DNA of 64,000 bases from Sphingomicrobium aestuariivivum (GTDB lineage: Bacteria > Pseudomonadota > Alphaproteobacteria > Sphingomonadales > Sphingomonadaceae). Every line of letters begins with the position of its first letter. The stretch's first letter is position 1. Location of the stretch: positions 496,001 to 560,000 of the forward strand of contig NZ_CP102629.1 in the NCBI RefSeq assembly GCF_024721585.1. Direction: 5' to 3'. Positions 31,554 through 35,126 of the stretch are shown piece by piece. Both the position numbers and the translations under genes were made by a program. A model generated the notes under the pieces. The model saw only the letters and a program-made list of their open reading frames with translations, had not been told where the DNA came from and did not search any database.

Positions 31554-32654
31554 TTAGCGCAAGCTGACTTTTCCGCCGGCATGGCGATCGAGCCGGCCGC
31601 CAAGGTCGAGTTCGAGCAGCGCGAGCTGCACCTCGGGCGGGGTCAGCCCCGACTGGCGGATGATCTCGTCCACCCCCACCGCGACCGGTCCGAGCAGCGC
31701 CTCGACCCGCTCGCTCGCGGCCGCGTCCACATCCTCGGCAATCGGCGCGGGCGCGCGCTCCTCGGCGACATGCTCCATCCGCGCATCGATCGGGCGCAGC
31801 GTCGCGAGCACGTCCTCGACATCCTGCACCAGCACGGCGCCGTCGCGGATGAGCCCGTTGCAGCCCCTTGCCCTCGGATCGAGCGGGCTGCCGGGCACCG
31901 CCATCACCTCGCGCCCCTGTTCGCCCGCCAGCCGCGCGGTGATGAGGCTGCCCGATCGCGGCGCCGCCTCGACCACCACCGTGCCGGCGCAAAGCCCCGA
32001 GATGATGCGGTTGCGGTTGGGGAAATGGCGCGCCGTGGGCTTCGTGCCGGGCGGCATCTCGGCGACGACAAGTCCCTGCTCGGCGATATCCTCCTGCCTC
32101 GCCGCATTTTCGGGCGGATAGGCGATGTCGATCCCGCCTGCGATCACCGCGACGGTGCCGGTGGGCAGCGCGCCGTCATGCGCGGCGCTATCGATGCCGC
32201 GGGCAAGGCCGGAGACGACCACCTGCCCCGCCCCGCCGAGGTCATGCGCCAGCTGGCGGGCGAAGCGGCAGGCCGCGGCGCTGGCGTTGCGCGCGCCGAC
32301 CATCGCGATGGCGGGCCGGTCGAGCAGGTCGCTGCGCCCCTTCACGGTGATCACCGGCGGCGCGCCGTCGATCTCGGCCAAGAGCGCCGGATAGGCCGGC
32401 GTGCCGATGAGCAAATAGTGCGCGCCGTGGCGCTCGACCTCGCGCATCTCCGCCTCGACCTCTCGCGGGTCGGCGAGCCGCGGCGGCCGTCCCCGCCCGC
32501 GCCGTGCGAGTTCGGGGATCATGGCGATCGCTTCGGATGCACTGCCGAAGCGCTGCATCAAATGGCGATAGCTGATCGGCCCGATACCGCGCGAGCGGAT
32601 CAGGCGGAGATGGTCATGAAGGTCGGTCGGAGGGCTCTTGAGCAAGCGCGGCAT
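31554..32654 (-). CDS. dprA: DNA-processing protein DprA
   Basis: A 366-aa protein that in transformable bacteria loads RecA onto incoming single-stranded DNA. An N-terminal SAM-like region (RLIRSRGIGPISYRHLMQRFG) leads into the Rossmann-like DprA domain (about 100-290): MVGARNASAAACRFAR, VVSGLARGIDSAAHDGAL, GGIDIAYPPENA, PNRNRIISGL and EAAPRSGSLITARLA. A C-terminal winged-helix DML1-type segment follows. It overlaps plsY by 41 nt at its start and lies 69 nt before topA. comM is also in the window, but no uptake genes are apart from the partial prepilin-peptidase-like gene at the right edge. Confidence 0.95.
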   Translation of the reverse strand: MPRLLKSPPTDLHDHLRLIRSRGIGPISYRHLMQRFGSASEAIAMIPELARRGRGRPPRLADPREVEAEMREVERHGAHYLLIGTPAYPALLAEIDGAPPVITVKGRSDLLDRPAIAMVGARNASAAACRFARQLAHDLGGAGQVVVSGLARGIDSAAHDGALPTGTVAVIAGGIDIAYPPENAARQEDIAEQGLVVAEMPPGTKPTARHFPNRNRIISGLCAGTVVVEAAPRSGSLITARLAGEQGREVMAVPGSPLDPRARGCNGLIRDGAVLVQDVEDVLATLRPIDARMEHVAEERAPAPIAEDVDAAASERVEALLGPVAVGVDEIIRQSGLTPPEVQLALLELDLGGRLDRHAGGKVSLR

Positions 32655-33246
32655 CCTTCTTCGCGCCGAACCGCGGTTCCTCTCCCTTGAGGATCCGCGT
32701 GATATTGGCGCGATGCTTCCACCAGATGAGAAGCGTGATACCGAGCAGCAGGTTGAACAGCATGTCCTCGCCCAGCGCGAGCGCCGAGACGGGGGCCGAG
32801 GCGGCGGCGAGCAATCCGCCCGCCGACGACATTTTCGTGATCAGGAAAGCGGCGACCCAGATGCCGAGCGCGATCGCGCCGATCCGCCAGTCGAGGGCAA
32901 ACAGGATGCCGAACAGCGTGGCGACGCCCTTGCCGCCCTTGAAGCGGAGCCAGACCGGATAGAGATGGCCGATGAGCGCGCCTGCCGCGGCGAACAATTC
33001 GGCCTGTTCGCCCATATACTGGCGCGCGATGAGGACCGCGACCGCGCCCTTCAGCGCATCGAGCAGGAAGACCAGCGCGCCGATCTTCTTGCCTGCCGCG
33101 CGGACCGCGTTGGTGGCGCCGATATTGCCCGAACCCTGCGCGCGGATGTCGCCCTTGCCCAAGGCCAGGACAAGCACGAGCCCGAAGGGGATCGAGCCGA
33201 GGAGATAGCCCATGAGGAAGGGCCAGGTCTGGAAGTCGCCGAACAT
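32614..33246 (-). CDS. plsY: Glycerol-3-phosphate acyltransferase PlsY
   Basis: A 210-aa inner-membrane enzyme that transfers an acyl group from acyl-phosphate to glycerol 3-phosphate, the first step of phospholipid synthesis. Its three loop motifs are visible: LLGSIPFGLVL, RAQGSGNIGATNAVRAAGKKIG and GHLYPVWLRFKGGKGVAT. Five hydrophobic segments are present. I chose ATG 33246, with GAGA 6 nt upstream, over ATG 33252. Its 3' end overlaps dprA by 41 nt. It is divergent from the HTH/EF-hand gene; two overlapping palindromes lie 40-64 nt upstream of this start. Confidence 0.94.
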   Translation of the reverse strand: MFGDFQTWPFLMGYLLGSIPFGLVLVLALGKGDIRAQGSGNIGATNAVRAAGKKIGALVFLLDALKGAVAVLIARQYMGEQAELFAAAGALIGHLYPVWLRFKGGKGVATLFGILFALDWRIGAIALGIWVAAFLITKMSSAGGLLAAASAPVSALALGEDMLFNLLLGITLLIWWKHRANITRILKGEEPRFGAKKDAALAQEPSDRPS

Positions 33247-33285
33247 CGTCATTCTCGATAGCAGGCGGGCCGATAGTGGCAAGGG

Positions 33286-33310
33286 CCGTAACGATTACGG
33301 TCCGACCGTA
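33286..33310. promoter_or_regulatory. Two overlapping palindromes (candidate operator)
   Basis: CCGTAA-CGA-TTACGG (33286-33300) and TACGGT-CCG-ACCGTA (33296-33310) are both perfect 6+6 inverted repeats with 3-nt centres, and they share the middle half-site. They sit in the 100-nt divergent region between plsY and the HTH/EF-hand gene, 36 nt before the latter's ATG. The layout suggests cooperative binding by a dimeric regulator, possibly the adjacent LuxR-type protein itself. Confidence 0.5.
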
Positions 33311-33346
33311 CTTTGTGTCGCGGCGGGCGGGCGCTAGGGAAGGGTC

Positions 33347-34291
33347 ATGGCTGACGACACGACCGGACTGACGAGGCGCGAGCGCGAGGTGCTCGCCGGC
33401 ATCCTCGAGCGCAAGACCGCCAAGGAGATGGCGCTCGACCTCGGCATCTCGCACCATGCGGTCGAGAAACGGCTGAAGCGCGCCCGCCACAAGCTCGGCG
33501 CCGCCACCTCGCTCGAGGCCGCACGGCGCTACGAGGAGCGGTACGGACAGGCCGTATCCGGTCCGTCGGACCTCGGCGGCGACCCGGCAGACGGTGCAGC
33601 AGTGGCTCCAGCCGCACCACGTCGGTCGCGGCGTCGACTGTTCGGAGTGTCTCTCATGCTTATCGCCATTGCCATCGCCGCCGCTGCCATCATGCACCCC
33701 GCTGACGAAACCAACGCCTTCGTCGCCCTCGACCGCGACGGCAACAACTTCATCGAACGCAATGAATTCCTCGCCCGCAGCACCCACGCCACCCGCGTGA
33801 GCGAGGACAGGAGCGAAAACCTCGACGCCGCCGAGGTCAATGCACTGATGGGCCGGCTGTTCGGCGAACTGGACAAGGATGGCGACGGGCGCCTCACGGC
33901 CGAGGAGTTCGGCACCGGCGAAGTCTCGTTCCGCACCGTCAAGGTTCGCGACGGCCAGCGCCCCCCCGAAGCCGTCGTGCCGCGCAACCGCTATCGTATC
34001 GTGATGGCCCCCGAGCCAGGCAACGATCCTTACGACATGGGCTTCGAGGTAACCGACAGCGATCGTTCGAACAGCCTGTCGCGCGACGAATTTCTCGGTG
34101 GCGCGAAAACGTTCGACAATGCCGGCTATCGCGCCAGTGGCGGCGAGGATGGCGGGCTCGGCAAACTCTTCGAACGGCTCGACCGCGACGGCAGCGGCAT
34201 GATCGAGCGGGCCGAATATCGCGACCTCTCCTTCACGGACGAGGACGGCGAGGACTATCTGTTCGAGCTGGTCTATCCCGGCAAGGACTGA
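33347..34291 (+). CDS. LuxR-type HTH protein with transmembrane helix and four EF-hands
   Basis: A 314-aa protein of unusual architecture. Residues 6-62 form a LuxR/GerE-type HTH (LTRREREVLAGILERKTAKE, then ISHHAVEKRLKRARHKLGA). A linker rich in Ala, Pro and Arg leads to one hydrophobic helix (about 98-116). The rest, predicted periplasmic because the HTH must be cytoplasmic, has four EF-hand loops with full ligand sets: 129-140 (DRDGNNFIERNE), 176-187 (DKDGDGRLTAEE), 237-248 (DSDRSNSLSRDE) and 279-290 (DRDGSGMIERAE). The topology is like ToxR or CadC, with a calcium-binding sensor instead. Direct Ca2+ sensing and transcription control are inference. ATG 33347 has GAAGGG just upstream. murI begins at its stop. 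Confidence 0.85.
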   Translation: MADDTTGLTRREREVLAGILERKTAKEMALDLGISHHAVEKRLKRARHKLGAATSLEAARRYEERYGQAVSGPSDLGGDPADGAAVAPAAPRRSRRRLFGVSLMLIAIAIAAAAIMHPADETNAFVALDRDGNNFIERNEFLARSTHATRVSEDRSENLDAAEVNALMGRLFGELDKDGDGRLTAEEFGTGEVSFRTVKVRDGQRPPEAVVPRNRYRIVMAPEPGNDPYDMGFEVTDSDRSNSLSRDEFLGGAKTFDNAGYRASGGEDGGLGKLFERLDRDGSGMIERAEYRDLSFTDEDGEDYLFELVYPGKD

Positions 34292-34292
34292 T

Positions 34293-35126
34293 GTGACGCT
34301 TGCGTATCGACAAGGGGACGGGGTAGCCCCGCAGGCGATGCAGCCCGACGCGCCCCTCCTCTTTTTCGATTCCGGTATCGGCGGCCTGTCGATCCTCGGG
34401 CCGACGCGCGCGCTGATGCCCTCGGCGCCGATCGTCTATGCCGCCGACAATGCGGCCTTTCCCTATGGCACCCGCTCGGAGGGCGAGATCGCCGCGCGCG
34501 TCCCCGCCCTCCTCGGCCGCCTCGTCGAGCGAGTGCGCCCGCGGCTGGTCACCATCGCCTGCAACACCGCCAGCACCATCGCCCTGGACCATGTCCGCGC
34601 CGCGCTCGACGTGCCGGTCGTTGGCACCGTCCCCGCGATCAAGCCCGCGGCCGAACTGTCCGCGACCCGCGTCATCGGCGTACTGGGCACCCGCGCCACC
34701 GTTCGCCAGCCCTATGTCGACGATCTTGCCGCCAGGTTCGCGGGCGACTGCACCGTCCTGCGCCACGGCTCGGCCGACCTCGTCGAGCTGGCGGAGGCGA
34801 GGCTACGCGGCGAGCAGGTCGACCCCGCCGCCGCCGTCGCTGCGGCCCAGCCGCTGTTCGACCAGCCGGACGGCGACAAACTCGACACCGTCGTGCTCGC
34901 CTGCACCCACTTCCCGCTCCTCGCCGACTGGCTCGCCCACGCCCATCCTCAGGTGCGGTTCATTGACGGTGGTCAAGGTATCGCGCGGCGAATCGCCTAT
35001 CTGACAAAGGGACAGAGTTGGCCCGACGATGCCCCGCCGGGACGCGCGCTCTTCACCGCCGGGATTCCGCCCGGCATGAACACAGCGCTCGCGCCCTTCG
35101 GGATCACCGACCTAGGCTCGCTTTGA
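34293..35126 (+). CDS. murI: Glutamate racemase
   Basis: A 277-aa cofactor-independent racemase that makes D-glutamate for peptidoglycan. The family motifs are FFDSGIGGLSIL, YAADNAAFPYG, the first catalytic Cys in IACNTAS and the second in LACTHFPLL, plus IDGGQGIARR. The start is GTG 34293, which has AAGGA 5 nt upstream inside the previous gene's end; ATG 34338 is an alternative that gives a shorter N-terminus. It follows the HTH/EF-hand gene with a 1-nt gap, so co-transcription is likely. Confidence 0.94.
   Translation: MTLAYRQGDGVAPQAMQPDAPLLFFDSGIGGLSILGPTRALMPSAPIVYAADNAAFPYGTRSEGEIAARVPALLGRLVERVRPRLVTIACNTASTIALDHVRAALDVPVVGTVPAIKPAAELSATRVIGVLGTRATVRQPYVDDLAARFAGDCTVLRHGSADLVELAEARLRGEQVDPAAAVAAAQPLFDQPDGDKLDTVVLACTHFPLLADWLAHAHPQVRFIDGGQGIARRIAYLTKGQSWPDDAPPGRALFTAGIPPGMNTALAPFGITDLGSL

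Follow-up and report, generated by a model that had tools for sequence, protein, structure and literature searches.

A putative membrane-tethered one-component regulator with predicted periplasmic EF-hands and a conserved dyad at its own predicted promoter in sphingomonads

We analysed a 64,000-nucleotide stretch of DNA from Sphingomicrobium aestuariivivum (contig NZ_CP102629.1, positions 496,001 to 560,000; hereafter the window). The locus described here lies between plsY and murI and contains the following features, with the basis of each in brackets (HTH, helix-turn-helix; TM, transmembrane):

32614..33282, minus strand: plsY, acyl-phosphate glycerol-3-phosphate acyltransferase, divergent neighbour (tblastn synteny)
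33286..33300, no strand: second, imperfect dyad CCGTAA-CGA-TTACGG, overlapping the next (a perfect 7-1-7 dyad in L048, the closest relative)
33296..33310, no strand: perfect 7-1-7 palindrome TACGGTC-C-GACCGTA, candidate operator (family PWM score 26.6)
33311..33316, plus strand: predicted -35 box CTTTGT, adjoining the candidate operator (conserved CTT[T/G]G after the dyad)
33334..33339, plus strand: predicted -10 box CTAGGG, 17 nt past the -35 box (TA at a fixed offset in the family)
33347..34291, plus strand: HTH-TM-EF regulator gene (314-aa ORF, ATG to TGA)
33368..33526, plus strand: GerE/LuxR-type HTH, residues 8-60 (Pfam, AlphaFold2, family conservation)
33638..33694, plus strand: single TM helix, residues 98-116, with RRSRRR just before it (hydropathy, K/R bias, AlphaFold2 helix)
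33731..33766, plus strand: EF-hand loop 1, residues 129-140, DRDGNNFIERNE (Pfam EF-hand; D1 and E12 invariant in 34 homologues)
33872..33907, plus strand: EF-hand loop 2, residues 176-187, DKDGDGRLTAEE (Pfam best stretch 170-189)
34055..34090, plus strand: EF-hand loop 3, residues 237-248, DSDRSNSLSRDE, clade-specific (motif; Pfam EF-hand_8 217-250)
34181..34216, plus strand: EF-hand loop 4, residues 279-290, DRDGSGMIERAE, clade-specific (motif; three EF stretches pass in Pfam)
34293..35126, plus strand: murI, glutamate racemase, probable co-transcribed neighbour (tblastn synteny, 15 loci including the window)

The regulator gene and plsY share a 94-bp intergenic region. The murI frame opens at GTG 34293, yet homology begins only at about residue 10-19, which makes ATG 34338 the likelier start. 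An initial reading of the sequence alone (the sequence-only reading) had the regulator gene divergent from plsY and abutting murI; the divergence stands, and the abutment gives way to a likelier gap of 46 nt, instead of 1.

The regulator carries a GerE domain (PF00196) at 30.8 bits, above the curated cut-off of 23.5, which places it in the GerE/LuxR superfamily, and has one hydrophobic segment only (mean Kyte-Doolittle 2.62 over 19 residues), in agreement with the LuxR/GerE HTH and one TM helix initially proposed. The HTH is predicted by AlphaFold2 with a pLDDT of ~97, together with a helix at residues 96-115, and has a mean top-residue frequency of 0.81 in the family. Foldseek searches with the model ranked GerE (1fse) first, followed by EF-hand pairs, at E ~2e-3 and with no match below E 1e-3. 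The PHROGs search returned sigma-factor-like HTH matches only, and some HTHs of the family score equally with Sigma70_r4_2 and GerE. Pfam gave neither an autoinducer-binding domain, as LuxR quorum-sensing regulators would have, nor a receiver domain, as NarL/FixJ response regulators would, in the regulator, in which the HTH begins at residue 8.

The part of the protein after the TM helix belongs to the EF-hand superfamily, with paired helix-loop-helix units carrying D-x-D/N/S-x-D/N/S...E ligands and Pfam scores of 57.9 bits for EF-hand_1 (cut-off 25.4) and 57.4 for EF-hand_7 (cut-off 30). The four canonical loops of the sequence-only reading were recovered, and 20,000 residue shuffles of this part never gave four loops (maximum three, once). 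Loop position 2 is R, K, S and R in the four loops. AlphaFold2 predicts the EF1-EF2 pair with a pLDDT of ~80-95, dropping in the hairpin that joins the loops, and places bridge residues in both loops in the manner of an EF pair; EF3-EF4 is modelled at low confidence (pLDDT 47-61). In the two-loop relative L120, the corresponding values are 97 for the HTH and ~75-96 for the EF loop regions, with a TM helix at 95-111.

Conservation in the outer part is concentrated on the predicted Ca2+-ligand positions. Among 34 EF-type proteins, the mean top-residue frequency is 0.91 at ligand positions 1, 3, 5 and 12, a figure that is biased upward because the set was picked partly by the EF pattern, compared with 0.30 at loop positions 2, 4, 10 and 11 and 0.29 in the remainder of the outer part. 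D1, E12 and the D5 of loop 2 are invariant although the pattern permitted alternatives (in loop 2, D1, D5 and E12 in all 34 homologues), and Gly6, on which the pattern set no constraint, is retained in 32/34 and 29/34. The sequence between the loops is highly variable in length across the family.

The charge distribution around the TM helix supports a predicted topology in which the HTH is cytoplasmic and the EF-hands are periplasmic, since positive charge lies N-terminal of the helix. The window regulator has five K/R before the helix and one after, and 37 EF-type homologues have 107 K/R in the 20 residues before and 56 after; the bias is weak in some Sphingomonas members. Hydropathy and this positive-inside bias thus back, as a prediction, the earlier placement of the EF-hands.

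A search of 299 family genomes gave matches in 117, mainly to the HTH-TM part. Fifteen of the 30 top matches in other genomes combine HTH, one TM helix and EF loops; ~45 homologues in Sphingomonadaceae (sensu GTDB) have this layout, and syntenic orthologues of the gene are present in other genera. The usual number of EF loops is two. Four occur in the window, in L050 and L051, which have aligned counterparts of loops 3 and 4, and in L009, so that the four predicted EF-hands are an elaboration of the window clade (L050, L051), separate in L009. The calcium-binding input proposed at the outset is consistent with the EF-hand architecture and ligand conservation; its four loops are not typical. 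A scan of 84,980 species returned 73 loci, with at least two EF loops in 37 proteins, from Erythrobacter, Porphyrobacter, Citromicrobium, Qipengyuania, Croceibacterium, Sphingomonas and relatives. That scan gave no EF-type relatives outside sphingomonads and unnamed bins, and 337 genomes sampled across the class gave no HTH+EF fusion outside the family; both rely on similarity to the family, so convergent fusions could escape them.

The closest relative, L048 (803-1447), has a murI 90% identical to that of the window and a regulator only ~55% identical, with two EF loops against four, which indicates that the regulator evolves fast. Tandem regulator pairs lie between plsY and murI in L111 (2501-4461) and L118 (1565-3057), with the upstream motif described below at each copy; the second copy in L118 has no recognised EF loop. 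Apparently disrupted copies occur in L149 (broken frame) and in the matches of G480 and G461 (L090, L091; one in-frame TAG each). Outside the family, the EF domain has its nearest relatives in small EF-hand proteins, most of which have signal-peptide-like N termini. One small protein of the window's own genome, L208 (C1:1403424-1403888), combines a hydrophobic segment at its N terminus with four EF-like loops and is possibly a secreted relative of the outer domain.

The HTH-TM module also occurs with other outer domains. Paralogue L129 (2501-3247) joins it to 2CSK_N and paralogue L170 (2447-3355) to NtrY_N, both above cut-off. 2CSK_N and NtrY_N are sensor regions of histidine kinases, and their presence supports the view that the outer part serves as an input. 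The module appears to be a general chassis on which sphingomonads build membrane one-component regulators. Judged by eye, L032, L033 and L035 combine it with DUF4019-like tails. A duplicated outer repeat of ~100 residues (ALRNLVAGLASGSPDYDKLSPQFAEIVRRDLPMTH...) is present in L013, L016, L023 and L024; the repeat of L013 and L016 had no Pfam match.

The position between plsY and murI is shared by nearly all Erythrobacter-type members and some Sphingomonas members, and 14 of the 15 HTH-TM-EF proteins among the best 30 matches have plsY-murI placement followed by hemA, as in the window. At plsY-murI loci of the 84,980-species scan, 28 of 32 HTH frames have at least two loops. Within the genus, the gene is present at 8 of 30 plsY-murI junctions (own included) and missing from 22, a distribution that requires five changes on the murI tree. 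Together with the location common to Erythrobacter-type and Sphingomonas members, this suggests an ancestral gene that was lost several times and that is, because of these losses, dispensable.

Upstream of family genes we found a conserved motif, most commonly GGTACCAgCCGACCGtACTTgGg and in the window clade TACGGTCCGACCGTACTTTG. Its profile matches 59 of 78 non-redundant family upstream regions with scores of 9.6-31 (shuffled sequences: mean -4.8, 0.5% at 9 or above), although the profile was trained on these same sequences and the independent controls therefore weigh more. Among genus-mate plsY-murI junctions, scores reach 9.6 or more at 7 of the 8 that have the gene and stay below 5 at all 22 that lack it. 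On both strands of 394 kb of loci, 59 matches score 14 or more; with about five exceptions, these lie upstream of family genes. The motif lies at -53 to -55 in 39 of the 59 motif-bearing upstream regions, and 58 of the 59 have a -10-like TA 16-18 nt downstream. The motif likewise stands upstream of family members without EF-hands at other loci, and it is missing at several Sphingomonas EF-type members at other loci. Its occurrence before EF-less members makes the family HTH, not the locus, the likely reader.

A generic sigma-70 scan found no promoter, and the -10 box CTAGGG matches the consensus only weakly. From the boxes listed above, transcription would start near 33346, beside the ATG, placing the dyad centre near -43, the usual position of LuxR-type activators (lux boxes). 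The dyad lies directly next to the predicted -35 box of the regulator gene itself, a position that predicts direct autoregulation, with murI reached by read-through. The mode is, by analogy, probably LuxR-like class II activation, which fits a centre at this distance and makes positive autoregulation with murI read-through the most likely outcome. The exact dyad is present in a single copy in the window's own genome, and pattern scans of that genome gave no second strong site that would point to a wider regulon; two 2-mismatch dyads lie outside the regulator gene, no excess over a reversed-pattern control. Another 2-mismatch dyad, TACGGACAGGCCGTA at 33542-33556 inside the regulator coding sequence over YGQAV codons, is probably due to chance. 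Because the sole strong site is at the regulator's own promoter, the supported targets are the regulator, murI by read-through and possibly plsY, and the earlier proposal of envelope synthesis as the target was not directly borne out.

The architecture, topology signal, ligand conservation, sensor swaps in paralogues and operator-like site together make a one-component membrane regulator with a predicted periplasmic EF-hand input well supported. We infer metal binding, DNA binding by the HTH, the sign of regulation and the signal. In the proposed mechanism, the GerE-type HTH would lie in the cytoplasm, with a single helix crossing the inner membrane and the EF-hand pairs in the periplasm, where Ca2+ would follow the outside level and bind to them. 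Occupancy or folding of the EF pairs would alter the HTH, either in its dimeric state or in its position, and the HTH would bind the dyad at 33296-33310 adjoining the -35 box and activate its own gene, with read-through into murI; plsY might be affected too, via the common short intergenic region. We consider it fairly probable that the protein is a putative membrane-tethered one-component regulator with a periplasmic EF-hand Ca2+ input that autoregulates via the dyad. The further proposal, a new class of one-protein Ca2+-sensing transcription factor that activates its own operon and links murI, and possibly plsY, to outside Ca2+, is a tentative one, with the balance somewhat against it.

The same protein could be a membrane regulator whose bound Ca2+ is always present and has a structural role, as it has in dockerins and many other secreted proteins with EF-hands, the signal being something else, for example a partner protein, lipid, peptidoglycan fragment or envelope stress. 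High-affinity EF-hands may be permanently saturated by periplasmic Ca2+, paralogues carry other sensor domains, and the length-variable sequence between the loops could form a separate binding surface; however, conservation outside the HTH centres on the metal ligands and no further conserved patch hints at a partner site, and we regard a purely structural ion as unlikely. The sign of regulation is a separate matter. An HTH on the dyad could block RNA polymerase; autoregulation would then be negative, and Ca2+ would relieve or strengthen it. A dyad adjoining the -35 box fits occlusion as well as activation. Repression is nevertheless somewhat doubtful, given a dyad centre where LuxR-type activators usually bind and -35 boxes (CTTTG, CTTGG) that are poor, as in activator-dependent promoters.

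The motif itself might be recognised by a particular sigma factor as a promoter element, or be the site of another regulator common to these genes, as its fixed spacing to the -10-like TA and the equal Sigma70_r4_2 and GerE scores of some family HTHs would allow. But it is a dyad, unique in the genome, and it tracks family members at unrelated loci and not the plsY-murI junctions that lack the gene; we consider such an origin unlikely. Patchy presence, repeated losses and the disrupted copies could also be expected if the fusion arose by chance or has decayed, leaving an EF-hand membrane protein with a non-working HTH or the reverse. Retention of the layout in ~45 proteins, with HTH conservation and ligand conservation at the levels given above, makes this highly improbable, and we retain the Ca2+-responsive, autoregulating one-component regulator as the preferred reading.

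What is new here is a conserved dyad that adjoins the regulator's own predicted -35 box and goes with the gene. To our knowledge, the conversion of Ca2+ into gene expression in bacteria is poorly known. Input and output would here share one chain with a predicted site, which makes Ca2+-to-transcription coupling testable on a single gene and its promoter. The family also shows that the HTH-TM module is reusable and that its outer sensor domains can be exchanged, some of them being known from histidine kinases. If the proposal is true, the supply of D-glutamate (murI), and possibly of phospholipid (plsY), would be tied to outside Ca2+.

In the literature searched, with subscription journals largely outside it, we found no description of an HTH/LuxR domain and EF-hands in one bacterial regulator, which accords with the earlier remark that the layout had no known description. 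The predicted layout resembles that of ToxR and CadC, with an N-terminal cytoplasmic DNA-binding domain, one TM helix and a C-terminal periplasmic input. Those proteins have an OmpR-type winged helix, whereas the regulator has a GerE-type HTH and EF-hand pairs, without homology to them. We rejected membership in the ToxR/CadC group, as Pfam gave GerE and no Trans_reg_C (PF00486) match; the likeness first proposed therefore holds for the layout and not for the type of HTH. Like GerE/LuxR/NarL proteins, the regulator has a GerE-type DNA-binding domain, and its predicted site is placed near -43 like lux boxes, but its HTH is N-terminal and membrane-tethered, with no autoinducer, receiver or ligand domain before it.

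Lanmodulin is likewise an alphaproteobacterial EF-hand protein, and its NCBIfam profile scores weakly on the regulator (29.2 bits, cut-off 135). Lanmodulin differs in EF spacing, has neither HTH nor TM helix and typically has Pro at loop position 2, where K/R/T are common in the regulator family. A lanmodulin-like lanthanide sensor was rejected for now on the profile score and the absence of Pro at position 2.

The reported EF-hand sensors EfhP and CaBP work through partners that are unknown or are separate proteins. EfhP (PA4107) of Pseudomonas aeruginosa has a predicted periplasmic pair of canonical EF-hands, in which D1 and E12 are essential for Ca2+ binding (Kd 13.7 uM); it has no HTH and influences transcription only indirectly (PMC9132961). 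The Caulobacter CaBP-SigV system ties a periplasmic EF-hand Ca2+ sensor to transcription in an alphaproteobacterium with sensor and sigma factor as separate proteins (PMC13171946), whereas the regulator described here would combine the two functions in one chain.
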